Shown: positions 3,301-64,000 of the stretch, piece by piece
Layout of the letters: each line of letters begins with the position of its first letter
Numbering within the stretch: position 1 is the first letter of the stretch
Assembly (NCBI RefSeq): GCF_032854445.1
Contig: NC_088303.1
Location: forward strand, 3,541,501-3,605,500
Source of the DNA: Liolophura sinensis
Lineage: Eukaryota; Mollusca; Polyplacophora; Chitonida; Chitonidae
Length of the DNA: 64,000 bases
Direction of reading: 5' to 3'
Program-made: the position numbers and the translations under genes
The notes under the pieces: model-generated
The model's input: only the letters and a program-made list of their open reading frames with translations
Databases searched by the model: none
Told to the model about the DNA's origin: nothing

Positions 3301-3790
3301 TGTGGATACGAATTACAGGACCCTGGTCAGACTTCTGGGGTCAGGATTTCCCTAAACTGTGGACACGAACTACAGGCCTCTGGTCAGACTTCGGGGGTCA
3401 AGATTACCCTAAACTGTGGACACGAACTACAGGGTTCTTGTCAGACTGCGCGGGTCAGGATTACCTTAAACTGTGGACACGAACCTCAGGGTTCTGATCA
3501 CTCGTCGGGGTTCAGGTTTACCCTGAACTGTGGACACGAACCACAGGATTCTGGTCAAACTTCGAGGGTCAGGATTATCCTAAATTGTGGACACGAACCA
3601 CAGGACTCTAGTCAAACTTCGGGGTCAGGATTACCCTAAACTGTGGTGACGAACTACAGGGTTCTGTTCAAACTTTGGGGGTCAGGATTACCCTAAACTG
3701 TGGACACGAACTACAGGATTCTGGTCAGACTTCGGGGGTCAGGATAACTGTAAACTATGGGGATGAACCACAGGCTTCTGGTCAGACAAT
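350..3790. repeat. 57-bp satellite array, about 60 units
   Basis: The unit runs roughly from 'gtcaggattaccctaaac' through 'tgtggacacgaactacag' to 'attctggtcagacttcgg' and repeats every 57 bp, with point changes and some shortened units (for example 'tgtggacacagggtcagg'). Because 57 is 19 codons, several frames stay open for hundreds of bases, giving frames such as 640-1650 with a 19-residue periodicity. More than one frame is open, stops and indels interrupt all of them, and no splice or start context is evident, so I treat them as non-coding. A block of about 668 bp occurs twice in tandem (about 1378-2045 and 2046-2713), a higher-order repeat. Confidence 0.95.
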
Positions 3791-6440: not shown

Positions 6441-6468
6441 TGCACACTGACTAAAAACCACCAAAGTA

Positions 6469-8503: not shown

Positions 8504-8510
8504 TGAATGA

Positions 8511-12814: not shown

Positions 12815-12911
12815 TAATGCCGATTGTCCTCGATAACGATGCCCTCGGACCTCTGATAAATATCTCGCTGTCTATGAACGTGGTCATAATAATGATGTGA
12901 TTTGCAGTACG

Positions 12912-30310: not shown

Positions 30311-31149
30311 GGTAGATCTCTTCCTCAGCTAGCAAAGCATGAAACTTGAACAGTGTCCTCAGAAAGTCAACACAAAAGCTGCTTCAGCTTAAAGCAATAT
30401 TTCAGGTAGGGCCTTTAACACTACAAGTGAAAAATAAACCCACAAAAAAACCCCAAAAACAAACAACGGCTGATCAATGCTGCAAATGGCACAAGTAATT
30501 ACACAGAACAATTCCTTCTTTTCCACAATATTTCTCCTAAAACGGAGCAAGTTTCACTGGCTTCTCATATATCTGGTAAATTTCACGAGATCAGCTGCAG
30601 TCTATATACCCCAAGATGTGTGTTTTCCAGATTCGCGAAACCGAAGTCAACTGTCAAGACCGTGTTGTTGTTGTTGTTGTTTAACAGTATACCAGTGTAG
30701 ACCTTGAGGATGAATATCTAAAAGCACAGCGGGATACCATACACTAAGAAAGATGGCAGTAAACAACCCAACAAAACCGTGTCTACTAAATGCCGACACA
30801 CTACGTATTGTCACCTACGAACTCCTCATGCTTATAGCTTTCTTGTTTATCTCCTTGATCATCCGTGAATTTTGTCCACATCAACGAAATAACCAGATGA
30901 CGTCAGTCACATGACCACAAGGTCTATTTGGCGAGATGTGATTGGCTAGAAGACGTTCAGTACCCGCTGGCTTCCGCCTGTAGTGCTGATACCTGTTTTT
31001 TTGTTGTATTTTTTCTGTTTAAAAGTAGACGTGCTGGTTCATATTATCAGTAGTCGGGCTTAAAGTTAACAACCTAAGCAGCGGTCGGGAGTTTATAAAC
31101 ATGCAGGTGACACAGCTAGGAGAAACAAACAAGTTATTGTCTATTTCTT
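30311..31149 (-). promoter_or_regulatory. Upstream region of the HERPUD2-like gene
   Basis: Sequence between the ATG and the next mobile element. A palindromic TGACGTCA is at 30898-30905, overlapping GTCACATGAC (30904-30913), and an inverted CCAAT box (ATTGG) lies near 30941. CRE/ATF-type sites are bound by ATF factors in stress responses and HERPUD genes are stress-induced in vertebrates, so this could be the core promoter. I did not find a canonical ERSE (CCAAT-N9-CCACG). Confidence 0.35.
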
Positions 31150-37374: not shown

Positions 37375-40300
37375 CTATCTTGCAGCAGGAATGGTATTGA
37401 CATGAGCCATGGAGAGAGAGCAATACGACTGTTCTGGTATGAAATATTTCTGTGAAGATTTCAGAGTGATAAGGACAGGCTCCTGGAAGCGCAAGTCCAC
37501 TGTGTCCTGGGGACTGGGGAATGGGTTTAGGTACAGCTTCTTCATGGGTAAGTTGATGCTGGGAGGGAAATCAGGTGTCTGGGTCACACTAGCCCCAGGA
37601 GGCATCTGTCTGTAGTCTGTAAACATACAAACACCATGACAACTATACCAATGGTGATAATTTACTTCCTTTATTTAGTTGGGGGAGGGGGTAACAGAAA
37701 CAGGATAATTATGTCATGTGTACAAAAAAAATATCTCAGGTTCAAGTCCAGTCAAATGTTTTTCTTTCTCTTTTCCTTTCGTGCTTTAAAAAATCTAAAT
37801 TTTTATCAGCTCTTCAGTCAATACCCTTGAACCAAGCAAGACAATATTATATCAGAATATGTGAAATTTACAATTTTCAAACTAGACATCAAAGTACATT
37901 CTTATATACATAAGTGTGGTCCATTCCATTTGCTCAGAATATTAAATTTCCCCTGTAGGTCCCCATAAGGAAATGGTCCTTTTACTATTTTGGAAATAGT
38001 ATACAGTACTTGATGGCATGCTGCAAGCATTCAACAAGTGGTAGAGATATTCAGATAATATCCCCAAATATGTGTACACCTGACATATTCTTGAATACTG
38101 CATAAGCACCAATCAAATAAACAAACGAATCATCCCAACTTACCAGTATTATAGGAGGTTTCCCGCTTGGGTCTGCAACAACTGGTGTGAGTTTCTCCAA
38201 GACGTACCAGAGCAGTCTTACTGCACAATAATAAACATACAGCTTTTTGTCAACAAACTTTGATTGTAAATCACTGGCAAGAACAAGCAAGAAGAAACAA
38301 GAATTTATTCACCATTTTTTCATTTGTAACACATAAACCGAAAAGTTTGAATACATAATTAATTTGGGAAGAGCTTTTTGTGCAATAAACTTGTAGTATA
38401 AGGACATGTACATGTATACCTAAACCTCTCGTCCAATGCAGTTGTTTGGAGTAGGGTATTAAAGCAGCAAACTGCAAACATATACACACTGTTATAGCAC
38501 AAGCAAATAGCCTATAGGCTTGTGTATCATGGTAGTCACCATGATAGCCCATAAGGTAGTTCCCATGATAGTCCATCATGGTAGTCAGCATGACAGTCCA
38601 TCAAGGTAGTCACCACGATAGTCCATCATGGTAGTCCATCATGGTTGTCCATCATGGTAGTCAGCATGACAGTCCATCATGGTAGTCATCATGACAGTCC
38701 ATCATGGTAGTCCATCATGATAGTCCATCATGGTAGTCAGCATGACAGTCCATCAAGGTAGTTACCATGATAGTCCATCATGGTAGTCACCACGATAGTC
38801 CATCACGGTAGTCCATCATGGTTGTCCATCATGGTAGTCAGCAAGACAATCCATCATGGTAGTCATCATGACAGTCCATCATGGTAGTCCATCATGATAG
38901 TCCATCATGGTAGTCAGCATGACAGTCCATCATGATAGTCCATCATGGTAGTCAGCATGACAGTCCATCAAGGTAGTCACCACGATAGAGAGCAGTCCAT
39001 CATTGTGGTCATTGTGGTCATTATGACAGTCCATCATGACAGTCCATCAAGGTAGTCACCATGATAGTCCATCATGGTAGTTCATCATGGTGGTCATTAT
39101 GACAGTCCATCATGAAAGTCCATCAAGGTAGTCACCACGATAGTCCATCATGATAGTCCATCATGGTTATCCATCATGGTAGTCATGATGAAAGTCCATC
39201 AAGGTAGTCCATCATGGTAGTCCATCATGATAGTCCATCATGGTAGTCCATCATGGTAGTCCATCATGATAGTCCATCATGATAGTCCATCATGATAGTC
39301 CATCATGGTAGTCCATCATGATAATCCATCATGATAATCCATCATGATAATCCATCATTGTATCATGGATAAAACATCACGTCTTGCTATCTGGTAATCA
39401 GCCCTGTTACCACTTCAAATCCAATATTCTGCACTAGTGCACAGATGCGGATGTCATTTTGTTATGTTCCTCAATCCAAATCTCAATACACAAAACTCAC
39501 ACATTTACCCAACTGCTTATTTTCTGTTATCTCACAGGTGAAGTTTGGTTGATCTGTGTATACAATTATTAAAACTGAATGTGAGAGTGTACAAGAGAGT
39601 GCTTTTGCATACAAGGTTTCTACAGGCAAATTAGATCAAAGATACTGCAGTATCTACTAACAATATATAAATAGCAAACTTACTATGAGTGCACAAAAAA
39701 GAAACTTACTGCTGTATTTTAGGCAATACCAAAACAGTATTCTTTGTCTGTCCAGATTTCTCTTCACTGATTGGTGGAATAGGTCCTCGTCTTAATTTCT
39801 CCATTTCCTTCTCAAACGTGATCTCACAGAAATAGTTAATGGCCTCGACAAATGTTGCATTTTCCAGCACTGACGAATCAGTCACACTGTCTAAGTTGAC
39901 TAAAAAACAAAAACGCACACCTATGATTCTCTTTCCTGTATGGACTTCTAAAAATTTACTGTACAAGCACAGAAAGATGATGCTGCACTTTTTCCCTCAT
40001 ATTTGAAACTTTTACAAGGGTTGCAGCTTTTAGATGGTAAGAGGATACTTGGAATAAAATTCAGGGAAATCCCTCAACACAAAATGTTAACTTAGCCCAT
40101 GCCCAAGAGGATCAAGTGAAAACATAGATGGCAAGACAAATCTGTCATCGAGGAAAAAAACAGAAAATGTCCAACTGGGGAAAGAGGTTATGTTCAAAGA
40201 AAAATATTTTTGTATTTACTAGTATTTAGTTTTTAACAAGTCTGCTCATCAATCTGTAACTGATAGAATGCATGCATTCATTTTCATTTCGCAACTGTAG

Positions 40301-43300
40301 CTGAGTGATGCCTCTTGTGACTAAGGTAATTTACAAAGCCTTGCTAATACAAACTATTATAGGGGTTGTACCCCATACCAGCCAACCCAATTTGAGTTCT
40401 CACCACTGTTTATTTTATGTTTGTCAGGCTGGGTTGGGTGACTGGGTGGCTGGGTGCGTGCCATTCAGGGCGTGTGCCTTTTTGCATCTCCACAGTGACG
40501 ACACATGCTGGGCGTCTCACTGTAGCACAGTTTACTGTGAGGATGCACAGCTTACAGTAGGATGCCGCATCTATTTGTCCCTTTATGGTACCTTACTCAA
40601 TATGTCCATCATAAGATAATAATGAGATGCTGGCAGCAATAAGGCAAACTCCCATGTACAATGTATAATAAAGTGTAAACCATGTGACATGATGTATTGG
40701 CCTTTGTTGCTGTCAATAACCCCGTATCACACTGGTCCCATCTAGTAGCTGCTTCCTATCTTGACTTCTTGTTAATGACTTTGGAGGATGTTTGCACGAA
40801 GTGAAATTGTTGCTTCAAAAGACAAATGATGAAAAAGCTCATTTCACTTCTCAAAATCATTGAGCAATAATTTGATTGGACCAACATTTCTCAGACCTAC
40901 AGCCAGCAACCTGCCAGTATATTTATTTATTTACCTGTACTTCAACTACTGTTTAATGTCACACACTCAAGAATCTTTCTCCTGTACAATGGGAGTCAGT
41001 TATATGGGTAAAGAATCTCAATGGAAAAATTTTTTATCAGTACAAAAAGACTGTGCACATGTTCAAAGTGCCTACGACCAAACCTAGGAGTTCCAGAAAG
41101 TTCCCTTCATCACTTCACACCCATATACATGATATAAGACAGTACAGGTTTACAGGTTAGGGATGTATGGGAAATCTGATCCAATGACCCAGCACAGGCT
41201 TTAGGAGTGATATCTCTATCAGGAGCACACAAATGATTCCTGGTAAACCACAATGTTACCTGTGATAGCATGATGAGGTGGCTTTTTGTTCTGACTCACT
41301 GGCCTGTTGTCTGTTGATCGCTCCAGTTTGGGAGATGTATCCACCACACTGTCTTCTCCCTACAGCACACAATGTCACACAACAACTGAGAGACAGGCAG
41401 GCTGATTGGTCCAGACTTCAGGTCCTCCAACTTTTCAGCAACCTTTCAACATTACAGTAGTCTAAACACCCCACTTCAGGAACTTTAAATACTGGAAGCT
41501 TACCTGCTGCAGCACATTTATTTATTTATTTGTTTGACTGTTGCCACTCTCACCATGCTTAAGAATTCAAACAAAAGGTTGTCAATATTATGGGTGGACG
41601 AAATCTGAGTTCCTGGCATAAACAACTGGCCTTTGGCAAGTTTACTGATGAACTCTTTCACATGTGATGTACAGATATGCACACCCTATTAGGGGAATAC
41701 ATGCTGTCTTCAACAATACTAGACTGTGCAAGCAGTAACAAGCAGAGAGAGTGGGAGAATCGACAAATTTTCTGTCCATGGCTGGATTTGAAGCCACCCC
41801 TCCTATGTCCTAGCCATTGAAAGTCAAGTGCTTCTAACCACAGAACATGTATATTACCTGTGCAAATACAGGTCAAAATATACATATATTTATTTCTTTG
41901 ACGGATGTTTTATACCATACTCGAGAATATTTCACTTACACAAAGGTGGCCATCAATATGATGGGAGGAAACTGGGCCGAGCCCACGGGAAACCCACGAT
42001 CAACTGCAAGTTGCTGACAGACTTTCACATGTACGACCTGATAGGCAGCCAGCATGAGCTGGACTTGAACTCACAGCCACCGCATCAAAATATACATGTA
42101 CATATAGGCTTCACCATCCTTAGGCTTGCCAAAATATGGCTGCAATACAGCTGAAGTACATGTAGCATCAAGCCATAATCATTCATGCAATCATTATTAG
42201 CAGCAAGAGGAAATTAAGACAAGCTATAGTTTTGACTATATTATGTCTACTGTGAATACCGGAGAGCGTTTCCTAGTGCTGCTTGCTTGAGATCCTGCTG
42301 CTTGCCTCTGCCCCAGCCTTCCATGAACATTCTGACCTCGCCTTAATTTCTCAATTGTATCCTCCAGATGGATCTTGAAGGACGCCATCCACCTGAAAAA
42401 ACAAAATAGACGAATCACTAGATCAAACTAAATTCACTTATATTTAAACTATCTAACAACCAGAAAACAATACAACACTGATGGCTGGTATATTGTTTTC
42501 TCTATATCTATAATATGCTTCTTTTGACGTTTGCTTTCTATTTGTGCCTTGTTTGCTTGAAGTATTTCAACCTCACAGATGCCTTCCATAAGCTTTAATG
42601 GCATGTAAAGAACTGTTCAAATGGCACTCTTCAAATATCTGAGGCCTATTTCTTATGCACATGCTTGTACTCCTCACACATGTGTTGGGTCGGGTCATAC
42701 CAAAGACTATAATATCAGAACAAAATTTCTTTTGTCATTTGTTTTTTGTTTTTTTTTTATGTACAAAAAATTAACTTCTCAATGCCAGCTTACCTGTCCA
42801 GCCAGTCCTGACACATCTTGTGAAGAGCAGATTTCCTGTTAGTTTCCTCCAGGTTCCATGTGTCCCAAGAGTCAAGTTCCTGTGCCAAGTAACCATGTGG
42901 ATCAGCAACACCCATCCTTAACAAGACATCCAGCGATGTGGCCCTAAACAGAAGTAAAGCTTACTTGTAGGCCACTGAGATAACTATGACAAGCCCACTG
43001 GGGCAATGTTGAACATTTTTTTTATATATATACAATATAGAAGCACTTTTGCTCAACATCTTTTTCAAATTCAAAACTTTTAACTGATACTGTTTTGTCC
43101 CCATCTATATACTGTATCATGAGTTTAAATGTAGTGTGCTTTTACTTGATATCTTTGTCCCCATCTATATACTGTATCATGAGTGCACATGTAGTGTGTT
43201 TTACCTGATATCCTTGTTCCATCTGTATGGGTGCACATGTATTGTGTTTTACCCAATATCCTTGTCCCCTTCTATATACTGTATCATGAGTGCATGATAT

Positions 43301-46300
43301 CCTTGTTCCTGTCTGTATACTGTATTAGAGTGTACATGTAGTGTGTTTTACCTGATATCCTTGTCCCCATCTATGTACTGTATCATCAACTCTATGATCA
43401 CCCCCTGGTCATTCTCCCTCAGGGTCTGTAAGGCTCTCAGTGATGTCAGAATGAAGGTTTTCTCCTCGTGTACAAGTGCTGTGGGTGGGTTATGATGGTT
43501 CAGTGCTGACAGGTAACACCTAGCTATCCCATTCGTGTCCTCCATATCCTCCATACTGTGCAGAGTCATCAAGGCAGCTGATATGTCCACCTAAAACACA
43601 GCACCACACCTGTCCTCATAGTTGTTTGTCTTAGGTTTAATTGACTCTCACCAGATAGACTGTACCAAGCAAACCCTTATTTACTTATTTTTTCAAATTC
43701 TGACACATGAATTTTAGCCATCTGGTACCTTACCAGTGCTTGGTTTCAAGCAAAACTTTTAAGTCCATGAGATAACGACCATTTGGAAAGAACATGACAA
43801 AAGTGTTGTACTCTTCCACATACATGTATTTCACTGAGTCTACAGAAATTCAAGCATTTTCAATGGCCTCTATTCCAAAATCGTCAATTTCAGTTATTTC
43901 AAGGCCTTAAAATTTCTTTAAAGCATTGAAGTACTTTGCTGGTTTTCAGAGACCTGTGCAAACCCTTAACATACCTGTCCCCTTCTTAGTTTCATTAAAA
44001 ATTTTCATATAAAAATTCAAGTAGAGTCAATGTAAACATTACAGTTTTATAGATTAGCACTAATTCTGTTTATTAGTACTTTCTTGACACAGATACCAAG
44101 AATTTAATAGGAATGGCCACATATGATAGGAATGGCCACATATGATAGGAATTGGCCACATATGATAGGAATTGGCCACATATGATAGGGAAAAGACAAA
44201 AAAACAAAACAACATGAAACCATAAATCACATCTGAGACTGGTTTCTAGTTTGTTTATAATGATGTCTGAACAAACCCTGTTCGATACCAGTACTTCTAT
44301 TCTGTCCCTGGAACCATCAATTTGTAGACTGAAGTGACAAATTATCAAGAAAACATTTCCTGAACTGCCACAACTCCACTGTGTGCATACCTTGTGCTTG
44401 TAACTGGCTATCTTCATCACCCGACCCAGCAATGAGGCAAAGGCATCCACTGTCCATGGTTTAGGCAGAGTCTACAAGAGGGATCAGATATTAAAGCTTA
44501 ATAAACATATAAAAGAATACTGATCTGGATGATTAAGTGACCCTTACAATTCTAACATATGTTAAAAACTGATGTTACACTAATCGTACATGTTGTAAAG
44601 TCTGATGTCACACTGATTCTACATGTGTTAAAGCCTGATGTCAGTGATTTTTAAGAGTACATTTAACAGCTCGGTAAAAAAACTCTAGGGTTTCACAGAA
44701 GTTATATTCAGACCAGTGTTTTAGGGGTGTTATTTTCTACATCTACAAATGGAGCACATCAGCATGTCAAAACAGTGCAGAATATCCGAATTTACACCAT
44801 AATGGACAGGTTTCGCATATCATCACATACAAGTATACTCTTTACAGATACCCATGCAGGTCATCACTTTGTACGGTAAATGACATAAAGTTTCCATGTG
44901 AGTTATTATCGTTTTCTTTCGCACTATCTCAGTTGGCTGCAAGATGACAGAAACGCCCGCCCTTTCATTACCCTGCATGGCACTTCGCATCTCTGGTTGC
45001 TAATCCTTGCCACATGGGGTCAAGTCACTGACAGTGAGGTGTGCAGGTTTCCTGACAAGTAGGCCTGCATGTACATCTCTAAAAATACGCACAAATGAAA
45101 TTGGAGAAAGTGTAATGAAGGATGATGTATATTACAAACCTTTACATTCCAAACACTGTCTCAAAGCATGATCACACCAAACAAGGAATGTACATGCACA
45201 ATGTACAATGCAGGAATATCGATTATTTGGGTTAGGTATATGTGGAATCACCTCACACCATTATCTGGTTAATGTTCGTTTGCTGAGAGCTCTCATTATA
45301 CAACAAATGTGTGTACAAATGTATTTTAGCTGAAAACGAATTTCATCAGCTTTCCGTGTCCATGCAATTCCACTTGAGTATGACAGTCTACATGCACGTT
45401 TTGTTTCTTTAAATGTCCTTCTATTCCATTAGAGTTCCTTTTCCTGCATTTTTATATCAGGAACCTCCATTAAGCACAGAACACATAATGCAGGTGAAGT
45501 TTCTGAAGACAACCAGGATTTACTTTTACCCCTTTTCGATAGCGCTGCGTGTGAGTCGCGAATATCGAGAGACAAGAGTCTGAGTTGTTATCACATTAGG
45601 AGTTCGCACAACACTGTCACTGGCTTTATAAACAAAATATTTTATGATTTCCTGTACACAGTTTTGCCCAGACATGATTTACAAGTCACCAGTGACAGAT
45701 AAGATTATTGTTTTGCCCTTTGCCAGCATAAATTGTGTGATCACAAAAACAACTTTAAATTTTGAGTCCTGTGATTGTAGGTGGCTTGCGTCTTCATGTA
45801 GATAAAACCAATCTGTACGACTAAAATTTCATCTGACAGAACTCCCGATTAAATATGAAATAAATTAAGTATTCATGTTTGCAAAATATGGGCGGAAGTG
45901 GACAGTCTTTCAAATTACACCAGAATGAACAAGACATGGTTATTTGCAGCGATGCAAACGCATGTGTGTAGGTGTCACTTCATCTCATCTGATGGTAGGT
46001 CTAGTTTGCAAGTATGGATTTGGGGTGTAATAATTCTGCCACAGCTTTGTATACGGAAAGCCCTACAGTTTAAAAGCGGAAATTTGACATGACACTCCAC
46101 ATGCGTAAAGGTACTGGGTAGTTACGTCTCCACAGTATTTTCTCCCAAGTTCCCATTTATCACAAAATAACGATAATAAAACAGTCAACCAGTTGTGAAG
46201 AGCATGTACCAAAATTATTATGATTAAAACTGAGGAAAACATGAACTGTTGGTGGCTGGAGCATAGATTAACTGCTCAGTGAAGCGTCAGCTTGTTTATT

Positions 46301-49300
46301 AGATTTCTGAAGTGTCAGTATAATCCTCTGATCACCATGATGCTATCTTGCGGCGCTCAGTCAGTAAGAACAACCACCAACGCTGTGAATCCTGGGATAC
46401 CCTTTCCCAGTCCCAGGGAGAAACTTTAGGTCATTTACCGTATATCCGTTGCACATGCACACATTCTCAGCCACCATAAGTCTACCATCTTGTGAGGTAG
46501 GTCTACTTTATTCTGGCATGAACTGCATGGAAACTATTTTCATCACTTTTCTTCTGTTTTGGTTAGAAAAAGTGAGTCAAGATTCTGGTGAAAAATGAGC
46601 AAACTTAAGATTTGGTAGAAAAATGACCAAAGAGTCAGCCTGTAGGTGACGCATCAATACAAAACTTCAGGTCAATATTGATGTATTAAATGCCTACATT
46701 AACATAGATCCTAATACAAAAAAGAGACATGAAGTCAGGAATTGAAGTCACTTATGATGATTTCTGAGCATCGCTAAAAGGGTCATCCCCCTCATGTTAT
46801 TGTGCTTTAATTGCGTACAAAACCTGAGCTCAATACACACCGTACTCAAGAATATTTCACTTATACAACGGCGGCCAGCATTATGATGGGAGGACAATGG
46901 GCAGAGCCTGGGGGAAACCCACGACCATCTGAAGGTTGCCACCAGATCTTCCCACGTACGTATGGAGAGGAAGCCAGCATGAGATGCGACTGCATTGGTG
47001 AAGATATCCCCTCTCACACTGCCGTTATAATAGATGTTGGATAAGTGGCACCAATACACAAATTTCAACAGAAAACTTGAAACAGCAATCTTTTTGTGTG
47101 TGGCCAAGAACGGTTTACAGTTGTCATATTCATACCGTATGCATATAAATATCCTTGCAAAACTTTCTGTTGTCTACATATACTTTAGGTGCAGTAATGC
47201 TTACATCTGGGTTACAGTTAGGGAAGTACTTCTCAAACCATTCCTGGCCCTTGAATTGCATGATGAATTCTGGCAGGGGTGTTGGGGGAGCAGGAGGGGT
47301 AGGTATCCTCTCTGGCAAAGCAGAAATGGGATGGGCGGGTAATGGCGGAGCTTGAGAGACTATCTTGACAATGGGCCTCTTTGGACGAGGTTCTCTTTTG
47401 GGCAGAGGCTCTGGCTTGTTTATCTCAGAAGGTGGGTCATAAGCAGGTGCCCTGGGGGTGAATGGGGCTTGGGCTGTTTTCACTATCACCTCCTCCTTCT
47501 CTACTGGCTCAGCCACCGGGACAACCTCTTCGTTTTCACTCTGACAAAACCAATCCAGATTTCATATATCTTACTTTATGCTCTGTATGACCATATAGTG
47601 TTTTCCCCTATAAAATTTACCATTTATACTGTAATACAATACAATTATATTTATTGTAGTTGTTTAAGAAGGCTAGCATAAGAAGGCTAGCAAAGTACAA
47701 AGGTACATATTTTATTTGATTGGTGTTTTATGCCGTACTCAAGAATATTTGACTTATAAGACAGCTGCCAGAATTATGGTGGGAGGAAACCTGGAAGAGC
47801 CTGGAGGAAACTCACGACCATCCGCATGTTGCTGCAGACCTTCCAACATATGGCAGGAAAGGAAGCCAGCAATTGTTGGACAGTTGCACACCAATTGGCA
47901 ATTGCGCACAATTATTGTGAAGTGAAATTAGTTGGGTTGAGGTATGAATGTGCTCATATTCCAGAATACTATATCCAAAGGCTTATTTGACTTATTAGAT
48001 TTCTGTTTCATGCCATACATCTACTCTACAGCTTATGTGATAATAACAGTGAGTATTATGGGTGGTGAGTATTATGGGTGGTGAGTATTATGGGCGGTGA
48101 GTATTATGGGTAGTGAGTACTATGGGTGATGAGTATTATGGGAGTGTACATGTGTGTTTATTTCCAAAGACATGTTGCTGGAGCCTAGGGACACACACAA
48201 TCTGTGTTTATTTACCGTGAGTGAAGGTGATCTCTTTAACATCTCTTCAAATTTGGAGAGGAGGTTGGACGGAGAAAGAGGCTTATCCTCTTCTTCATCC
48301 TCCCTCTCAGCCAGCTCATCCTCAAACCAACTGTCCGATGTGTCATGTTTCTTCTGTTGTGTTGATGATACGTCCCCATAAGATTCTATGGACCTTGCAT
48401 CCTCTCCAGGCTGCAGAAAACACACAAAAAAAACACCATCCAACACCAATTTGACTGACTGAGCCTTTTATTTTCGTAAAAGAGAAAAGTGCTTTCAAAA
48501 CTAAGTGAGAGCAAAAGAGTCTGTAACAATCTGAAGTTCAACTGCAGGATATAAAAATTAGAATAAGTTAAAATGACCCCAATTTTCACCCCCAAAAAGT
48601 GGATTAATAAGAGACAAATAAATGCCATAATTATTAAATGCCATAACACACATTTGTCCTGTGGAATATCACCCTACCTGCCAAAAAAAAACTCAAAACA
48701 CCTTCCAAAGATCGATATAGATCTCTCTGAACCCTTAAAAATGTGCAACTTTGTCATGAGCAAAATTTTATCCCAGTTCTAATAGTAATGCAAATACAGA
48801 ACAAAAAATGATCGAAAACATTTAGACAGCCAATTTCAGAAAACTGTAAGTTGCAACTCCATCTTAAGTTGCGATATTAAAAAGGTACATGTACAATGTA
48901 CAATGAGGGTTTAAACTGGATGAATACCTTTGCTGTGTCATCAGTTCGTTGTAATTGTAGCGCTGGGGGTTGATATCTCTTCTCGGGTATTTTCACCGGT
49001 GGGGGATCAGGCCAGAGTAAACGCAGCAGAATGGAGTTGGGCACAAATCCACCACGGCCTACCGGAATGGTACGTCCCTCATCAAGTTTGGTCTTCTGCA
49101 TTGATGTTGGAGGGAAGAATCCGGTTGGCTCCTTTTCCGGAATCCAACCTTCCATCTCTGACAAATTAGAATTTGTTATAACTACATACAGTACCAAATA
49201 GAATGTCTTAGATGACCCATGTTTTAACCAATATGGAACTGACCAGATTGCCAGTTCAGGAAGTGTTTGGTTAAGGACAGGAAAACACGCACAGTGTCTT

Positions 49301-52300: not shown

Positions 52301-55300
52301 GTGTAACAAACAGAAACAGGACCCATCTTGTGTAACAAACAGAAATAGGACCCATCTTGAGTAACACTTAGAAACAGCACCCATTTTGTGTAATACATAC
52401 AAAGCTTCAAGGCACAGTATTCTATTTACTATTTATATTTTGACAATATCATGATTTTGTGTATTTGAACAACTCTAAGCCATGCTTTTGGCTGTAGACC
52501 ATGAGAGTGTAGCGTAGAAATGTTACCGTTGACTGAACTTGTATTATAACCTTATCCCACCCAGCTCAAACTGGAATGTCATAAAACAATTTTTGTTTTG
52601 TTGACATCATGGCGTTTGAGAGTGAAATATCAAAATGTGACAACAAATGTGATATCTGAGTGAAATATCACTTATACTAGTGAAAGAAACCCTAACACTT
52701 CATCTTTATATAAATAATGAATTAGTATATGTAATTCTGCTTTCTTCAGGGGGTACTCATGTTAAAGCTGTTTTTTGGCTTGTCAGTCTGAGTGTACGCA
52801 TACGCTGAGTTGCTGAAGGATTAAAATCATTACCTGAGATCTGTACACTGTTTCCAAACACAGACTGTGGGATATGTGCCCTTATCTCAGGTATTATACA
52901 TGTATAGGTACAAATTTTGAAACTTTGTGTAGATTTGAATTTACACATACATGTATACATGTAGGCTATGGGAATACAACTGACAAATTTAATAAGGAAT
53001 ATTTCATACTCTGGTTGAATGGTAACTTCCTACTACCACATTTCAGAATAAAACAGTCTACCTGAATTTTAGGCCTGTTGTGGTACAGTTTCATGAACTG
53101 TTTCAAAGCTTCCCTCTGTGTCCTGGCTGTGCGTCTTGGCTTTTTCTTGCATGAAATAGCTCCATCCCTTAGAAGACGAAGTTCATTTTCGCGCTCCTCA
53201 AGGGTTGCATACCCCTTATGAAAAGAGTAAATAAATAAATAAATAAAGCATGAAACAAATCAAAATTAATTTGATAAATTGTATAAATTGTATAAATAAC
53301 AATTTATACACTTACATTTCATTTCATACTGAAGTTGTCAGATTTATGGGAAGGGAAGCAATACAAACCAGAACATCCAAAGCATAATTCATGTGAGTGG
53401 TTGACACAATTTATTGAATTGCTTCACTGCACAAGCATGTCAGTTAATTGTAACTCAATGTCAGCTGTACAGCAACAAGTGTTTAATATCATCTACATGT
53501 TTCTGAATTATGCAAAAATTATGAAATATGCAAATATTACTATTAAATCAAAATCAGAAGTTAACCTTCAAGAATCTAAAATTTATTTTCACAAAGTAAT
53601 CAGCCAGAGCCAAATAGCCCAGAAAGAGATGGCTTGTAGACAACATTTTTGCTCAAGTTGAAAGCCTTCTTATTGATGCAGATACATGTACTACTGCATA
53701 AAGGTATTTTACGTTATCTTTATTTTGTGATAAACAGCAAGTGTTTGCTACTGATGAGTCTTACCTGTTCCCTTTCACGAGCCTCTCGTGTCACCTCATT
53801 CTCTTCATCGGATGTCAGTTTGTCTGTGTACTCATCATACCTTGTGAAGAAAAGTAACAAAGAAATAAACACATGGTTTACATCGTTTGGCAGATTTATA
53901 TGAACTCTGACCTGAGAAAATGGATCAACAACTACCTAAACTGTGCTCAGTGAAGTCCTGTATGGCATTTCAATGATCTGGCCAAAGTGTCATGGCTGTG
54001 AGTTAGGAGACGTAATGCTAAAGCAAGCGCACAAAATTATGCCAAGGTACATGAACTCGTTATCAAGATTTTTTGGTGCTGTAACAGAGGGACGAACATA
54101 CATGGCTACAGCAATATCCTTTGTCTGAAGTTCGTCAAAAAGTACAAATCACAATGTCATAGCAGCTACAGAAATCTGTTACACTGGTTTTATCCCCTTA
54201 CTTCAAAGAAGCTCTAGCATTTTTCAGACGTTTGAGGTCAGATTTGTTAAGTTGGTTTAGAAGGTTCTCATCATAAGGAATGGGGGGTTCTGCCTGCTGG
54301 CCCAGGAACTTCATACAAGACATCTTTAGCAGGTACTTCTTTGGTAGATCTAAAATAAAAGTCAATCTACATAAGCACAAACAAATAAAAGACAGCATCC
54401 TTCCTGAACGGAAAAACAGCTACAAAGTAACTATAAAACATTGAAATGTAACTTACAAAAATTGTAAAATGACAAAAAAATGAAAAAATAATGCCTTCAT
54501 GTCCAAATATAATACCGTCCTGTCTTCATTGTGTGAAGAATGTGAGTATCATATTTGGAATCTGAAATAGTTTTCAAAAAATCCTGTCCACATGTAATAC
54601 ATATGCACATGCACTTTGGTGTACTACATGAATCTTACAGTGTTAATGGACAGCACCCAGTTAATGTCTATTTCCAATGTATGACTATGATCCAAAGTAT
54701 GTCAAACCATCATTACAGTACATACTTTTTGGAATTTTCCAAACTCAAAAGAAGTTTAGTAAGCCCTTACACTGACACAGCATACTGTATAATCGATATG
54801 ACAATATGTCAGAAAAGGTTGCGAACTTTGGCCATAAAAGCTCAAGTGACGAACCATTTATAGATGTTTTCCTGGGAACTAGACATGGGTTTGAAAGACA
54901 TAAATCTTCAAAACTGGTAAACATTCTTCGTAAAACGTTGAACGCTTGTCTTGCTTAGTTTTTAGAACAAGGTGATGTCACTGATGGCGCCCATCATTCA
55001 TGTTTCAAACACTTTATGCTAAAGTTTTTGTGAGTCATAAGCACTTAGAACAAGCCACTGTGAGTCATACTCACATAGAACAAGCCATTGTGAGTCATAC
55101 ACACATGGAACAAGCCATGGTGAGTCATACGCACATCAAACAAGCCACTGTGAGTCATACGCACACGGAACAAGCCATTCTGAGTCATACTCACATAGAA
55201 CAAGCCATTGTGAGTCATGCGCACATGGAACAAGCCATTGTGAGTCATACGTACATGAAACAAGCCACTGGGAGTCATACACACATCAAACAAGCCATTG

Positions 55301-58300
55301 TGAGTCACACACATGGAACAGGCCATTGTGAGTCATATGCACATGGAACAAACCATAGTGAGTCAAATGGACATAGAACAAGCCACTGTGAGTCATACAC
55401 ACATTGGCAAGCCATTGTGAGTCTTACGCACATGGAACAAGCCACTGTGAGTCTTACACACATGGAACAAGCCATTTTGAGTTATACGCACATGGAACAA
55501 GCCATTGTGAGTCATACGCACATGCAACAAGCCACTAGGAGTCATATGCACATATGAAAAGCCACTGTGAGTCATCCACACATGGAAGAAGCCATCGTGA
55601 GTCTTACGCACATGAAACAAGCCACTGTGAGTCATACAAACATGGAACAACCCATTTTGAGTTATACGCACATATAAAAAGCCACTGGGAGTCACACACA
55701 CATGGAACGAGCCATCATGGGTCATACACACATGGAACAAGCCATTATGAGTCATATGCACATAAAACAAGCCACTGTGAGTCATACACACATGGAACAA
55801 GCCATTGTGAGTCTTATGCACATAGAACAAGCCACTGGGAGTCATACGCACATAGAACAAGCCATTGTGAGTCATACACACACAGAACAAGACATGGCAT
55901 TTTGAGTAAATTATAGACTGAAAAGATTCATGAAGTTTATTTCTGGCCCAACATAACTAAGCTACAAATATTGCACACACATATACAAAACCTTGTTGCA
56001 CAAAAATGTAACACTACAATCACTACCATGTGTTTACTTCAGTAACTTGCAGTTTTAGATGAAAAACCAGTGCAGTTCACCTTTAAACCCTTCCCTCAGT
56101 TCATAGTTCATTTATGTTATAAAATTGTCATTACAAGCTTGTAACGAATTGTAAGACAGATTTATGTCAAATGGGTAAAATACAAACATTGCTTTACAAT
56201 TTTCACCATGAACACTTGTTCAGTGAAAACATGTCACTGAAGACAGGAGATATATACATGGACCATATACCTAAATTATGACAGAATCTAGACTGTCAGA
56301 AAACTTTTTGCAATCTCCACAATCTTTATGAGCCTGTCACACAAGCCATCCCAGGAATAAAAACATCTAACCTTGCTCATTGTACTCACAATTTCAAACT
56401 AGACTAAGAAAGGCAGCATGCAGGAGGTAGACTTACAGACAGTATGCGGGATTTTGCTGACATGGAGGCCTATACCCAGGAGGAGGTCCCCTTGCTGGTT
56501 ACAAAAACCAATGCTGTGGGGAGATACACCCAGTCTCAGCACTCTATGGGATGAAAAACAAAAATGTGTTTGAATGTTAACATAACCAAGATTTGAACCT
56601 CAACCTAACAGACCAATTTTTACACACAAGTGTATATACATGCACCTACTTCCTCAACCTTTTTGCATGTACACATGGAGTGTTTTTAGCATATTATAAA
56701 GGCATTTCTGTACATGTACTCTCATAAAATTATGACCCTCACCAAACATAAATTATTGCCATGATCAACATACGAATAAAGCTCTGGTGAATAAATTGTG
56801 TTGATATTTTGCCCTGTAACATGTGAAAAGGTTTGAGGAGATACATGTTGTAGGGTATGTACATGTACACTGTATTTACGTAAGAATCACAGTCAAATAT
56901 GAACTCTCTGTCCATCACACGGCAAACCACTGGTGCGGGGCTGAGGGGATTTGCCATCTTCTGATGGCTCTTCTTAAAATTTAGTTAACTTGTATATCTT
57001 GAATCTTCTCTCCAGTAGGAAAATTTTCAAATATAAATGATATCTGATAATATTTTACTGACCTGTGACCTACCATCTTGTGGTCTGAGTTCATATTTGA
57101 CATGTTAACATGTGATGTATCAGTGTTAGAGTACCCCATACATAAAAATAATTTATCGTTGGTTGGAAGTCCCTCTAATGACTCTATTCATACCTCAATG
57201 TCTCAAGGAAAACACTGTTATCCAATTTTCACTCTGATATTTATTTTAATACTTGTATGATTGTTCCTCAACACCATACAGCAGAATGTTTCATTCATAT
57301 GATAACTGTCAGTTTTATGGATGGAGGAAACCAGTGTGTCCCAGATAAAGCACTGACCGTGGGCAAGTTACTGATAAACTTTCCCAAATGTGATGAACAT
57401 CCGACATGCACACCATATCGGAGAAAGACAAGCAGTCCTTAAACTAGGCAAACAGCTAAACAAGCACCGTCAACCACACAGTGTCACCAGGGCCCCATAA
57501 GCAGAGAGAGAGGGGGATTGAACGATCTGTGTGGTACACCAGGGATTGCAGGTTGTTCTGAAATGAAACAGACCAATGCTCGCATGACAACTAAACTAAC
57601 CTGAGGAGCTGGTTCTTGTCACTCCAGATACGTACAGTACCATCCAGGCTGGAAGTGGCAAAGAGTCGCAGTTTGTGACAGGCGGTCAGGCCCGTAATGG
57701 TGTCTTGGTGGTCGTCATTTGGTTGATGGTCACTCCGATCTGAAACCACAATACTTTGCAATACACCAGAAAGTTATCCCCAAAACCTGTGTTTCTACCC
57801 AAACAGTTGTATTTAAAAGAAATATGAGTTTTAATACAGATGTAAATATCTTGAATGAGCGTAGTACATGTAAATGTTTTCAAACCGTTTTGTTTTTTAG
57901 ATTATATTTTCCATGGATTCATATTGTTATTTTAGAATCGTAATATTAAGGGTTCGAGCTTTCTGCCGGAAGGCCTTTTGTCACTGTCAGCACTACCATT
58001 ATTCTGTGCAAAAATGAGTCACATTTCTACGGAATATAGTCAGTTAGAAATTCATGAAGCCTACATGGTGTATTTTAGGGACTGACTATAAGCTGTGCTC
58101 TGTAATAGGTCACGTGACTTGGCTGACGTGTTGGATCAACTACAAAACCTAACAAAACCTAACAGTGCAACATTTTTTAATGGAATCTGTTGAACCTTGA
58201 TATACATGATCTTTGACCTGTGACTGAAAATTCTAAAGCAGGTATTCTTATTTTGTATGCAAATAAGAGAGCAATATGTCACTTTGTAAAATGTCAAAAG

Positions 58301-61300
58301 TACTGTTTTTTTCTCTTTACTACAAACAGTCCTTAGATAATTACAATAAAAACTATCCTATCTACATGTAATGTATTTTGTCGTTCTGATTCCAAATTTG
58401 TACTCAAATCTGACTGGAACTGGGTTATTTTCTCTGAAGTAGAAAAAAAATGCAACAAAAATTACTAGAAATTAATGTTCAAAAAATTAATGTGTAAAAT
58501 AGCAGTCCAAGAAGAAGGGAACACGTTACATGTCTGTAAAACACAAACACTTTATTTCTGGATATTCAACATTTTGAAGAAATTGCATTTTACACTACAG
58601 AGTGAAAAATATAAAAGCTAGATAAATGCAACCAGCTGTAATAAATTGGTCTGCAAACTGGCCTTTCACATTTATGTGAACAGATTTGATTTGACATAAC
58701 ATTTTACAGATTTTTTAATCATGTTATCTTTGATTTCTTTAGTGAAAGTTTGTTCCGTCAATATCAGTGCAATATCACTATCTACAGGGCTTAACTGGGC
58801 ATTCCATCACAGATTGGATCACACACTAAAATAACCTATGGTTTGCAATATGTGAATTGGTACTTACTCTTTGTGATCAGGTTGTAGAGCACTACACTGT
58901 AGGTGGCACTGGAGTGGTCATGGAAGGCTACACACAGAGCACTTTTCATCATCACCATGTGTGATGGAGTGTGACCACAGTAGAAGGACATGAGTGGAGC
59001 CAAGGCTTCCTCAGCAAACGGGTACAAACGCCACACTTTGATTATGTTATCTAACCAAATCACAAAGAAAAGAAGATAAATTACAAATGCTGAACAAACA
59101 GATTCATGAGATCAGGGGGTTTTACACCACACATTGGAAAGATCAGGGGGTTTTACACCACACACTGGAAAGAGGGGGTTTTACACCACACACACTGGAA
59201 AGAGGGGGTTTTACACCACACACTGGAAAGATCAGGGGGTTTTACACCACACACTGGAAAGATATGTAACAAATGGCTGATGAGCTGTATATGTTTGTAT
59301 TTATGCTTGGATAACTATGTACTTATAAAATATTTTTCAGTCATATGATGACGTCATAAGGCGTATGTACATACACTGTGTATTCTTGTGGTAGGGCATG
59401 TTGCCAAAGTCCTGCCACCACTGAGGCATAATGCTGAAGACATGACACTCCAGCCACATCACACTGACACCTGGCCAACCAGTCCTGTTTCCTTACTCTA
59501 AGCAGCAAATACCACTTTAGTATGACTTTGGCATGATAAGGTTTCATACTGAGTCTCCCAACATCGAGGCAGACGCTCTATCCAATCGGCCACCGAAACA
59601 GACTTGGTCAGCATTGTGCTGCTATACTGTTAACACATGTATGGAAACACCCATCAACCACAGACACGGTCATATGGTTATCTAAACACCAGTTATCAGG
59701 TACAATCAACAATGAGGCCATGTTAGTATGCAATCTGGTCCCTCGTTAAGTGAGTGGGCAATGCCACAAGACAGGATGTCAAAACTTGGCAGTCGAAACT
59801 CCTCTATACATTAAAAACACCCCGTTTTGGGAAAAGCTAAAAGATGTTTTAAAACATTTTCACAGACACTGAAAAGTGGCCTAAAGACAGCGTTTAATAA
59901 GTTTAATGTACAATATTTCACTATAATGATCTGACACACTTTCCACAGTGTGATAAATGGGTGTGTCTCTTCAGTCAATCACAGACACGCTGCCCGAAAA
60001 AAAGGCAGCAGTCATGAACAGAGCCGAGCTGGGGGTAACTTACAGAAAATCACGATGCCACAGCCAAACAATAGCATGGCGGCAATGAACTCTTGTCACG
60101 GCTTCAAGAACAAGTTACCTTGTTACTTTACCGTTTTATTGTTGTTGTACTCCATCAGCCAGTTGTTCACTATGACATTTTCCTTGGCGTGTCCACCTGG
60201 CCTCTGGTTATTTATGTCATCTCAGTTCACCAGAGCTCAATGAACGCACCGGGGATAGTGTGTCAGATTGTTGTTAGCAAAGCCATGTACATATCATCTG
60301 ATTTTGATCACAATGAAGCAGACTCAGCTTCAGTATGATACTCATGCATTGATTGGAAAAATACCTTGTCAACACAGGCATACATGACATGTACCCTTTG
60401 TACTCTCACAAATGTTTTGAAAGGAACATAATCTCTGGTGACAGATATCAGTTGAAGGCTTCAAGGCTACTATTACATCTACCATCAGGATGTTGGTGTA
60501 TATATTTACTCACGGATCAATGTCTACCATCAGGATGTTGGTGTATATATTTACTCACGGATCTATGTCTACCATCAGGATGTTGATGTATATGTTTACT
60601 CATGGATCAATATCTACCATCAGGATGTTGGTGTATATGTTTACTCACGGGTCAATGTCTACCATCAGGATGTTGGTGTATATGTTTACTCACGGGTCAA
60701 TGTCTACCATCAGGATGTTGGTGTATATGTTTACTCACGGATCAATGTCCACCATCAGGATGTTGGGGTATATGTTTACTCACGGATCAATGTCCACCAT
60801 CAGGATGTTGGTGTATATGCTTACTCATGGATCAATGTCTACCATCAGGATGTTAGTGTATATGTTACTCAAGTGTCAATGTCCATCATCAGGATGTTGG
60901 TGTATATGTTTATCATGTATCAATATCTACCATCAGGATGTTAGTGTATATGTTTACTCACGGATCAATGTCCACCATCTGGATGTTGGTGTATATGTTT
61001 ACTCATGGATCAATGTCTACCATCAGGATGTTGGTGTATATGTTTACTCACGGATCAATATCTACCATCAGGATGTTGATGTATATGTTTACTCACAGAT
61101 CAATGTCCACCATCAGGATGTTGGTGTATATGTTTACTAACAGGTCAATGTCCACCATCAGAATGTTGGTGTATATGTTTACTCATGTATCAATATCTAC
61201 CATCAGGATGTTGGTGTATATGTTTACTCACTGATCAATGTCCACCATCAGGATGTTGGTGTATATGTTTACTCATGGATCAATGTCTACCATCAGGATG

Positions 61301-63678
61301 TTGATGCATATGTTTACTCACGGGTCAATGTCTACCATCAGGATGTTGGTGTATATGTTTACTTACGGATCAATGTCTACCATCAGGATGTTGATGTATA
61401 TGTTTACTCACGGATCAATGTCTACCATCAGGATGTTGGTGTATATGTTTACTCACAGATCAATATCTACCATCAGGATGTTGGTGTATATGTTTACTAA
61501 CAGGTCAATGTCCACCATCAGAATGTTGGTGTATATGTTTACTCACGGGTAAATGTCTACCATCTGGATGTTGATGTATATGTTTACTCACGGATCAATG
61601 TCTACCATCAGAATGTTGGTGTATATGTTTACTCACAGATCAATGTCCACCATCAGGATGTTGGTGTATATGTTTACTCATAGATCAATGTATACCATCA
61701 GGATGTTGGTGTATATGTTTACTCACGGGTCAATGTCTACCATCAGGATGTTGGTGTATATGTTTACTCATGAATCAATGTCTACCATCAGGATGTTGGT
61801 GTATATGTTTACTCACGGATCAATGTCTACCATCAGGATGTTCGTGTATATGTTTACTCACGGATCAATGTCAACCATCAGGATGTTGGTGTATATGTTT
61901 ACTTATGGATCAATGTCCACCATCAAGATGTTGGTGTATATGTTTACTAACAGGTCAATGTCCACCATCAGAATGTTGGTGTATATGTTTACTCACGGGT
62001 AAATGTCTACCATCTGGATGTTGGTGTATATGTTTACTCACGGATCTATGTCTACCATCAGAATGTTGGTGTATATGTTTACTCACAGATCAATGTCCAC
62101 CATCAGAATGTTGGTGTATATGTTTACTCACGGGTAAATGTCTACCATCTGGATGTTGGTGTATATGTTTACTCACGGATCAATGTCTACCATCAGGATG
62201 TTGGTGTATATGTTTACTCACGGGTAAATGTCTACCATCTGGATGTTGGTGTATATGTTTACTCACAGATCAATGTCCACCATCAGAATGTTGGTGTATA
62301 TGTTTACTCACGGGTAAATGTCTACCATCTGGATGTTTGTGTATATGTTTACTCATACATCTATGTCTGCCATCAGGACGTTGATGTATATGTTTACTCA
62401 CGGATCAATGTCTACCATCAGGATGTTGGTGTATATGTTTACTCACGGATCAATGTCAACCATCAGGATGTTGGTGTATATGTTTACTCACAGATCAATG
62501 TCTACCATCAGGATGTTGGTGTATATGTTTACTCACAGATCAATATCTACCATCAGGATGTTGGTGTATATGTTTACTCACGGATCAATGACATACATGC
62601 TATGTTTTGTGCTGCTGCAAGCACAACAAAGGCTATTACAAAATGACTCCGAAAACACCGGGCATGGGCTCCAATCACGTTATAATAAGTAGAAGCAAAA
62701 AGAAAAAAAACAAAAAGGATAACTGAAAACACAAGGGTGGGTATTTTTTTCCCTAATGCAAATTCTGAAAACAGTCTGTAATGGTCGTGCTAATACTCAC
62801 TCTCAGCATATTGTTGATTTATACTGTTTTGGCAAACTTTGGTCTGACTGTGACTGCACAATCGCAGTAAAACCCTGGGACTGCCTAATTCTTATAGCTG
62901 CACTACAAGGTCTGGCCAAGAGATCAGATAAGGCCAATAAAGTAGGGCAGCATAATATAGCTGACTGCTGAATCAGCACATATACCACGTTCACAAGGTA
63001 CGTGATACTCAGGCTTTCATGGATTTACACCAACAAGAAAATCTTGATCTTAATTTTGTGCTCTCCTTTGAAAGACGCATAAGAACACTGCAGCATGACT
63101 GTAATTCATTAAGATAAAATTGCAGATACTAGCAAATAACATCACTGACAGCATGGAAACATCAGAGAATTCAGAGGACACATGAGAAACACTGGATGCA
63201 AACCCACCAAGTTAACACTATCCAAATAAATAAAAGACAGGGCAACTCACCCATTCCTGCAGAGATCAGCTGATCTTCTTTTGAGTTAGCAATCATACTG
63301 AGAACTCCCTTAGCACCATGAGCCTGTAAGCAATAATACAGAGTTTGTCTTATTATAACTTTATCTTGTCCTTGAGAGTTTTAATTTCAAAATTTCACCT
63401 AACTTCGCTCACTGTGCAGCATATTCTGTGACACGTAAATATAAAAGCAGGGCTTACATCCACGCTAAAATCCACTTTGCCCGTCTTCCAGTTGAAGACA
63501 CAGATGTAACCATCTTTTCTACCTCCAAGCAGAAGAGTTCTGTTTCTGTTTGTCACGTTAGCCTTTGTGGTGTCCTGAAGACTTCGTGTCTCGACCGTTT
63601 TCTTCATGGCCCTCCAGGCATCCTCCTTCAACATGGCATCCACTACATATTCATACACCAGGAGATAGTTGCAGAATT
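37375..63678 (-). CDS. WDR97: WDR97-like WD-repeat protein, 3' part, 20 exons
   Basis: Exons in transcript order: 63678-63458, 63323-63251, 59050-58868, 57739-57601, 56543-56437, 54349-54202, 53840-53765, 53214-53062, 51668-51617, 49157-48928, 48410-48216, 47540-47205, 44471-44391, 43590-43352, 42943-42794, 42392-42260, 41359-41260, 39899-39710, 38220-38144, 37616-37375. Every junction is GT/AG; the total of 3125 nt reads as one frame (1040 residues plus stop) after a partial first codon, which supports the model. The start lies beyond the right edge. WD-type blades: LLLGGRKDGYICVFNWKTGK, DQLISAGMDNIIKVWRL and LFATSSLDGTVRIWSDKNQL. Then GDLLLGIGLHVSKIP, YLPKKYLLKM, charged linkers, GRGGFVPNSILLRLLWPDPP, a Pro-rich exon, helical exons, and a C-terminus with QEPVLITLKSSQKYFIPEQS. 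This order resembles WDR97 (KIAA1875), with WDR87 the alternative; both are thought to be sperm/cilium-associated. Introns carry at least nine minisatellites. The gene family name is moderately sure, the exon model more so. Confidence 0.8.
38570..39365. repeat. About 13-bp minisatellite in a WD-gene intron
   Basis: Units of the type 'tagtccatcatgg' alternate with 'tagtcagcatgaca' and 'tagtcaccatga' variants over about 800 bp, with larger blocks repeated inside. Lies in the intron between the exons at 39710-39899 and 38144-38220. Confidence 0.92.
41516..41850 (-). mobile_element. SINE family 3 copy
   Basis: A decayed retroposon with 'tatttatttatttgtttgac' at its tail end and 'ggatttgaagccacc' near the head (reverse complement of a box B-like site). 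Related to 57240-57560 ('gagagag' near the head, similar body). In the WD-gene intron upstream of the exon at 41260-41359. Confidence 0.55.
41886..42084 (-). mobile_element. SINE family 1, head-truncated, with 13-bp target duplication
   Basis: Tail, body and box B region are present in reverse ('gttttataccatactcgaga', 'gccagcatgagctggacttg'); the box A part is missing. TCAAAATATACAT flanks both ends (41873-41885 and 42085-42097), so truncation happened at insertion, as expected for incomplete reverse transcription. Confidence 0.88.
43085..43391. repeat. About 60-bp tandem repeat made from an exon end and its splice donor
   Basis: The last copy covers the 3' end of the exon at 43352-43590 plus its donor. 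Earlier partial copies at about 43085, 43141, 43200, 43241 and 43295 repeat the plus-strand sequence 'tttacctgatatccttgt' and 'ccccatctatatactgta', with deletions. On the coding strand each good copy is exon end, GATATCAG, then gtaaaa. The repeat therefore arose by duplicating the exon-intron junction into the intron. Confidence 0.85.
44100..44187. repeat. 20-bp minisatellite, about four copies
   Basis: 'ggccacatatgataggaatt' repeats at 19-20 bp in the intron after the exon at 44391-44471. Confidence 0.9.
46836..46990 (-). mobile_element. SINE family 1, truncated
   Basis: 'accgtactcaagaatatttc' through 'gccagcatgagatgcgactg' in reverse orientation; both extremities are worn. In the 2.7-kb intron between the exons at 47205-47540 and 44391-44471. 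Confidence 0.8.
47708..47880 (-). mobile_element. SINE family 1, truncated
   Basis: 'gattggtgttttatgccgta' through 'ggcaggaaaggaagccagca' in reverse orientation; the tRNA-like head is missing. In the intron just upstream of the Pro-rich exon 47205-47540. Confidence 0.82.
48046..48142. repeat. 16-bp minisatellite, about six copies
   Basis: 'gtgagtattatgggtg' repeats every 16 bp with few changes, in the same intron as the SINE at 47708-47880. Confidence 0.92.
49757..51256. repeat. 43-bp minisatellite, about 35 copies
   Basis: Unit 'ttctttctgttctgtctgtt' then 'gtgatcactgggtttgtgac' then 'tag', period exactly 43 (for example GATCACT at 49781 and 49824). Two positions vary in a mosaic manner: ctgttctgtc or ctgttgtgtc, and gatcactg or gatcgctg. 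In the intron between exons 51617-51668 and 48928-49157. 43 is not a multiple of three and no long frame arises. Confidence 0.96.
51705..52400. repeat. 29-bp minisatellite, about 24 copies
   Basis: Unit like 'acccatcttgtgtaacaaac' then 'agaaacagg', 26-30 bp with variation. It starts about 40 bp from the acceptor of the exon at 51617-51668. Overlapping minus-strand open frames of up to 153 codons are by-products of the repeat. Confidence 0.93.
55022..55895. repeat. 30-bp minisatellite, about 29 copies
   Basis: Unit 'agtcatacgcacatggaaca' then 'agccattgtg'. Because 30 is ten codons, both strands show long frames with ten-residue periodicity. In the intron between exons 56437-56543 and 54202-54349. 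Some units have lost a base or two. Confidence 0.95.
57240..57560 (-). mobile_element. SINE family 3 copy
   Basis: Decayed copy related to 41516-41850: 'ttttatggatggaggaaacc', 'gggcaagttactgataaact' and a 'gagagagagggggattgaac' head region whose reverse complement is box B-like. In the intron after the exon at 57601-57739. Confidence 0.5.
59100..59262. repeat. 31-bp minisatellite, about five copies
   Basis: 'gatcagggggttttacacca' then 'cacactggaaa', with some units losing the 'gatc' part. Starts about 50 bp upstream of the acceptor of the exon at 58868-59050. Confidence 0.92.
59395..59605 (-). mobile_element. tRNA-derived SINE fragment
   Basis: On the minus strand 'ggtggccgattggatagagc' followed by 'gtctgcctcgatgttgggag' resembles a tRNA head with box A; a body of about 150 bp follows. 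Box B is weak. Confidence 0.5.
60476..62592. repeat. 45-bp minisatellite, about 47 copies
   Basis: Unit 'atcaatgtctaccatcagga' then 'tgttggtgtatatgtttact' then 'cacgg', period 45. Since 45 is 15 codons, two plus frames are open for long stretches (residue periods such as MLVYMFTHGSMSTIR and CLPSGCWCICLLTDQ); these are not genes. It fills half of the intron between exons 63251-63323 and 58868-59050. On the coding (minus) strand most units contain CCGTGAGTAA or CTGTGAGTAA, close to a strong 5' splice site. Confidence 0.96.
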
Positions 63679-64000
63679 CTGGTGTGGGGAAAAATACACT
63701 GGATATTAACATTCTACAACACAATGGCAGTTCCTGGTTACTTTGGCAATATTTTGACCAGTAAAGGACAATTCTGTCAGTAACATTTTTGTCAGAAGTG
63801 CCAACAATTATATCTTTGTCTGTATAGTTTGTGTAACTTTAATATTAATGTATGTACCCTATCATGTCTGTTAAAATGTTTTTAACAATGATAAATAATG
63901 CACAGCAGGACAAGAACATCAAAATACTACACAGTATAAAAACCTTAAATACTAAGGAACGTGTATGGAAACTTATTTAACTAATACTTGTTTATAACAC
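63679..64000 (-). other. Upstream intron of the WD-repeat gene (window edge)
   Basis: The acceptor of the first visible exon is at 63678/63679. No exon is recognised between it and the window edge; the 5' part of the gene, with its first WD blades, lies outside. Confidence 0.5.

Follow-up and report, generated by a model that had tools for sequence, protein, structure and literature searches.

Ten tandem arrays with mutually unrelated units lie in a single gene of the chiton Liolophura sinensis, a putative WDR97-like gene, and we think it probable that they are ordinary, locally born minisatellites, presumably without function, which this genome would form or retain at a high rate, possibly a higher one towards chromosome ends, and of which a gene of at least 26 kb would have collected ten. 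The gene itself is probably not special. Its predicted extent is positions 37375-63678 of a 64,000-nucleotide stretch of DNA (the window; C9:3541501-3605500, contig NC_088303.1) that lies 3.5 Mb from the contig end, in an assembly of 609 Mb and 632 contigs. An earlier reading of the letters alone (the original prediction) had seen in these arrays the mark of a local mutational bias acting on one transcription unit. The apparent one-gene hotspot instead lies close to the background of its own genome, and no special mechanism has so far been needed to account for it.

Arrays were called with Tandem Repeats Finder at a score of at least 100, with overlapping rows merged, and the gene region as named in the original prediction was found to hold ten of them, covering 6,686 bp or 25.4% of its 26,304 bp (Table 1). 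All nine arrays that had been noticed by eye, with units of 13, 16, 20, 29, 30, 31, 43, 45 and 60 bp, were recovered by the program, together with a tenth of 33 bp that was absent from the earlier list. Each consists of head-to-tail units of 13-60 bp and is thus a minisatellite, and each likely sits in an intron. Chance arrays were rare: 50 order-1 Markov surrogates of the region yielded none at a score of at least 100 and nine in total at a score of 50. Arrays are not confined to the gene, as expected of ordinary, locally born minisatellites: two others in the window (355-3784, 3,430 bp; 33638-36130, 2,493 bp) are longer than any array of the gene (maximum 2,113 bp), and the flanks (30 kb) contain six more.

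We then compared the gene with pieces sampled from the rest of the genome, and found that it falls in the upper part of the background range rather than beyond it. Twenty random 7-kb pieces (140 kb; the first 20 of 24 places drawn, from 11 contigs within lower length bounds and falling on seven) contained 26 arrays with a score of at least 100, equivalent to 1.86 per 10 kb and 13.7% of bases, and 11 of the 20 carried at least one. Adding 16 fresh random pieces (eight terminal and eight central) and eight from dynein heavy-chain genes gave 44 pieces, treated as independent and amounting to 260 kb of 609 Mb, of which 11 equalled or exceeded the array density of the gene and six its base fraction. 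Resampling the random pieces to 26.3 kb produced a mean of 4.9 arrays, with ten or more reached at p=0.054 (p=0.13 for bases), a value uncorrected for the post hoc choice of the gene; when only the 17 pieces lying no more than 6.5 Mb from a contig end were resampled, the mean was 7.1 (p=0.16 for ten or more; p=0.28 for bases). These figures do not bear out a mutational bias peculiar to one transcription unit. The original prediction had also set the gene against its HERPUD2-like neighbor, whose introns it described as free of comparable arrays; no array does start between 25.0 and 33.4 kb, even at a score of at least 50, but this emptiness means little because 9 of the 20 random pieces also lack an array with a score of at least 100. 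The longest array in the sample (piece L004, positions 250-5622 of C9:5937356-5944355) spans 5.4 kb, with about 97 copies of a 56-bp unit.

The units are private to their arrays. Consensus units of 12 arrays in the window and six in the flanks matched only their own arrays when 48 sequences were compared, the exception being the 52-bp array, which was matched again past an inserted repeat. As had been claimed, the gene's units share no obvious sequence: none matches another array in the window, in the 30-kb flanks or in the sampled pieces. Across 354 kb, 55 of 61 array units matched their own array only, six matched a neighboring array in the same sequence and none matched across sequences, indicating that private units are the rule in this sample. 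We also searched the assembly with six arrays and about 200 bp of their flanks: five from the gene (43, 45, 30, 29 and 13 bp) and the 52-bp array from elsewhere in the window, leaving aside those of 60, 20, 33, 16, 31 and 57 bp. The search passes over simple repeats and very common words, so the absences it reports are not absolute. The 43- and 45-bp arrays with their flanks were found at one place each (all candidates scored), and the 30-bp array (21 of 21 candidates scored), the 29-bp array (best 40 of 334 candidates) and the 52-bp array (best 40 of 3,086 candidates) had no second place, their flanking repeats recurring alone. The 13-bp array had one other, weak place, at 68% identity. Unrelated units and five searched gene arrays without a good copy elsewhere among the scored candidates make it likely that the arrays were born separately, in line with the independent births proposed originally.

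The order of units within arrays bears on how each may have arisen. We divided seven arrays into their units and, before counting, discarded any unit with at least 25% gaps; 35, 47, 29, 22 and 64 units remained for the 43-, 45-, 30-, 29- and 13-bp arrays, while stretches of the 52- and 57-bp arrays contributed 34 and 21. Neighboring copies were no more alike than distant ones in the 43-, 45-, 30- and 29-bp arrays, where 55, 225, 434 and 174 of 500 shuffles, respectively, reached the observed maximum at lags 1-12; the stretch of the 57-bp array at 2598-3784 likewise showed no neighbor excess (94 of 500 shuffles). Units were clearly ordered, in contrast, along the 13-bp array (0 of 500 shuffles) and along positions 34366-36130 of the 52-bp array (2 of 500). 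Each array would have started with duplication of a short unique sequence, followed by amplification in one or a few bursts, or by array-wide homogenization, and then by point mutation. We favor bursts or homogenization over slow, stepwise slippage because, in the first four arrays named, likeness between neighbors does not exceed that between distant copies. Units of the 43- and 45-bp arrays are about 95% identical to their consensus and those of the 29- and 30-bp arrays about 89%, which suggests that the two pairs differ in age. The simplest reading is that bursts occurred separately and at different times, that mutation followed, and that blocks were sometimes duplicated elsewhere; array-wide gene conversion could yield an equal picture.

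A regional effect would refine this explanation rather than oppose it. Chromosome ends, as presumed sites of frequent recombination and break repair, would have a raised array density, and the gene would be dense because it lies close to the end of C9. Across the 20 random pieces, array count was lower the farther a piece lay from its contig end (rho=-0.60, p=0.005), and the trend held across all 44 (rho=-0.39, p=0.008 for counts; rho=-0.41, p=0.006 for bases), the latter P values including the discovery pieces that prompted the gradient idea. Bins nearer than 6.5 Mb were the richest: they held 2.7-3.0 arrays per 10 kb, which made up 19-21% of bases, compared to 0.7-0.8 and 3-6% beyond 12 Mb, and there is human precedent for such a rise among GC-rich arrays (PMC3486850, PMC7608644). 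However, a test fixed beforehand, which drew on seven contigs and compared eight random pieces 1-6 Mb from contig ends with eight others at distances above 12 Mb, was not significant (2.00 versus 1.25 arrays per 10 kb, one-sided p=0.17, or 0.12 at a score of 200; 11.2% versus 8.1% of bases, p=0.16), and inclusion of the dynein pieces gave p=0.15 for counts (0.059 at a score of 200) and 0.14 for bases. Two central pieces (L032 and L033) were rich, three of the eight terminal pieces lacked any array with a score of at least 100, the gene is richer than both its flanks and the remainder of the window, which are equally near the end, and contig ends need not equal chromosome ends. Altogether, the data are suggestive of a fall in array density with distance from contig ends; at most, arrays may be denser near the ends of assembled sequences, and we regard a regional effect as an even call. 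Exact TTAGGG runs were seen at the start of C10, at the start of C13 and on C20 among the 100 listed of 251 matches, and a second block on C10 (15953-16513), 16 kb inside the contig, has the same orientation as the block at the contig start.

Apart from the fresh comparison of ends with centers, the observations that weigh against a mere background of arrays concern the gene's own richness. Its 3.8 arrays per 10 kb are about twice the random mean of 1.86 (plain Poisson p=0.028), nearly five times the density in the remaining 37.7 kb of the window (3 arrays, against 10 of the window's 13 in the gene; p=0.010) and almost three times the density when the flanks are added to that remainder (10 of 19 in the gene; 9 in 67.7 kb; p=0.020), a comparison affected by the chance that a flank partly belongs to the host gene. 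These P values are post hoc and uncorrected, the gene having been chosen for looking rich. The sample is also small, and it compares the gene with genomic pieces rather than introns with introns. We accord this modest local excess small weight.

The same excess, together with ten unrelated units, is what speaks for a gene-specific bias, whereby germline transcription, replication or recombination at this gene would repeatedly make arrays. We consider such a bias improbable, since the density falls inside the sampled range and arrays also occur outside the gene. Germline transcription, put forward earlier as a possible driver, gained no support from eight hand-chosen 5-kb pieces of dynein heavy-chain genes (four near ends, four interior; axonemal and cytoplasmic genes pooled), a rough stand-in for motility genes, which held 3 arrays in 40 kb (2 in the 20 kb near ends and 1 in the 20 kb of the interior); these pieces are weak controls because their exon spacing suggests short introns. 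A transcription-linked strand bias was considered and rejected, as the purine fractions of the ten arrays on the plus strand range from 0.37 to 0.63 with no common side.

A mobile-element origin, in which the arrays would have arrived here as the cores or tails of inserted elements (tandem-cored Helitron-like elements, for example), is less probable still. In its favor, the 29-bp array and the 30-bp array each stop no more than about 16 bp from where an interspersed repeat has its edge, and a repeat resembling a short interspersed nuclear element (SINE) adjoins the 52-bp array. Yet, within the candidate limits given above, none of the six arrays searched recurred elsewhere with the same flanks and no listed match carried the 43-, 45-, 30-, 29- or 52-bp arrays, and no repeated flank was found at the 43- or 45-bp arrays in the assembly search. 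The SINE-like repeat sits within the 52-bp array and was inserted later, because the array resumes beyond it. This repeat of about 120 bp, labeled by eye, has copies at 36131-36250, 32986-33108, 47711-47829, 46837-46936, 41884-41997 and 13961-14084; it is abundant, the whole query giving 3,086 first-look candidates, and a 24-letter stretch of it had no match in the searched literature text. Inflation or misassembly of the arrays is highly improbable, for although long arrays are prone to misassembly and these are known from one assembly, units are mostly distinct in six of the seven arrays examined (the 13-bp array, with 25 distinct of 64, being the exception), comparable arrays occur in many other pieces, and neither the window nor the pieces contain an N.

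Amarger in 1998 and Vergnaud in 2000 reportedly described the clustering of human minisatellites at chromosome ends, and the human genes PTPRN2 and DLGAP2 lie near chromosome ends. Both are among the human genes richest in variable-number tandem repeats (VNTRs), whose number correlates with gene length (PMC7608644), and the chiton gene resembles them in holding many arrays in a single gene. The same study reports an enrichment of human VNTRs with units over 15 bp, strong for GC-rich ones, in the outermost 5 Mb of chromosome arms (PMC7608644). That enrichment concerns arrays of more than 60% GC that vary between haplotypes, whereas the ten arrays of the chiton gene, from one assembly, have 34-48% GC and do not show the GC-rich units of human subtelomeric clusters. 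Human GC-rich minisatellites are also described as clustering near chromosome ends (PMC3486850); chiton arrays may likewise be denser towards ends, but this gradient is only suggestive and the arrays of the gene are AT-rich. In C. elegans, autosome arms are rich in repeats, including tandem repeats, and centers are poor in them (PMC9071541), although this is a different animal with a different repeat spectrum, and a chiton contrast between arms and centers is at most suggestive. In Daphnia, tandem repeats with units over 8 bp are rarer in introns than elsewhere (PMC3152781).

The chiton gene thus represents a further case of a known kind, of low interest for the gene itself, with a modest upside if an AT-rich gradient towards ends holds genome-wide. 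It is possible, though rather unlikely, that this genome builds private AT-rich minisatellites very fast, more so near ends and in bursts, which would turn long genes close to ends into mosaics of unrelated arrays. Enrichment at ends would in that case be independent of GC-rich or G-quadruplex-forming units, unlike in human. The questions this raises are genome-wide ones: whether AT-rich minisatellites gather near chromosome ends, and whether they are born in bursts.

Table 1. Minisatellites and recognized coding frames in the window (positions count from its first letter).
Feature	Position	Strand	Source
Minisatellite, 13-bp unit, 76-bp higher-order period, ~65 copies	38526..39362		Tandem Repeats Finder
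Minisatellite, ~60-bp unit, ~4 copies	43078..43332		Tandem Repeats Finder
Minisatellite, 20-bp unit, 4.2 copies, 98% matches	44107..44189		Tandem Repeats Finder
Minisatellite, 33-bp unit, 2.7 copies	44555..44643		Tandem Repeats Finder
Minisatellite, 16-bp unit, 5.9 copies	48049..48142		Tandem Repeats Finder
Minisatellite, 43-bp unit, 35 copies, 93% matches; sole place found in the assembly	49758..51256		Tandem Repeats Finder, assembly search
Minisatellite, 29-bp unit, ~22 copies; interspersed repeat begins at ~52402-52415	51707..52399		Tandem Repeats Finder, assembly search
Minisatellite, 30-bp unit, 29 copies; interspersed repeat begins at ~55885	55028..55895		Tandem Repeats Finder, assembly search
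Minisatellite, 31-bp unit, 5.1 copies	59109..59263		Tandem Repeats Finder
Minisatellite, 45-bp unit, 47 copies, 90% matches; sole place found in the assembly	60478..62590		Tandem Repeats Finder, assembly search
Minisatellite outside the gene, 52-bp unit	33440..36130 (33440-33555 + 33638-36130), resuming 36252-36361 after SINE-like repeat 36131-36250		
Minisatellite outside the gene, 57-bp unit with longer periods	355..3784		Tandem Repeats Finder
Open frame carrying one WD40 repeat; likely host-gene exon	57594..57773	-	Pfam PF00400, E 2.2e-5, 25.3 bits, cut-off 27
Exon with HERPUD2-like ubiquitin-like domain	30131..30328	-	PDB 2kdb, E 3.2e-17

The host gene, a putative WDR97-like gene, likely carries WD40 repeats, to judge from its translated frames. 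Minus-strand open frames across the gene region fit a multi-exon gene, and the frame with the WD40 repeat matches many WD-repeat chains in the PDB. A second frame (63398-63838) weakly resembles WD-repeat coatomer chains (E 0.0059), and single-frame searches with the other frames of the gene gave weak or no matches. Among the listed papers that name WDR97, titles and abstract openings say nothing about its function. Further putative exons of HERPUD2 were recognized by eye beside the one with the ubiquitin-like domain.

Elsewhere in the window, a protein kinase frame lies at 12837-13718 on the plus strand (Pkinase, E 2.5e-56), which we take to be possibly a testis-specific serine kinase. A Tc1/mariner-like transposase remnant with one in-frame stop codon occupies 6451-7311 on the plus strand; the label was given by eye, and its backing comes only from helix-turn-helix matches in the first part. 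Self-comparison of 8501-10400 revealed an inverted duplication of at least 575 bp (8592-9166 and 9826-10400) with 99.7% identity between its arms, which may continue past 10400.
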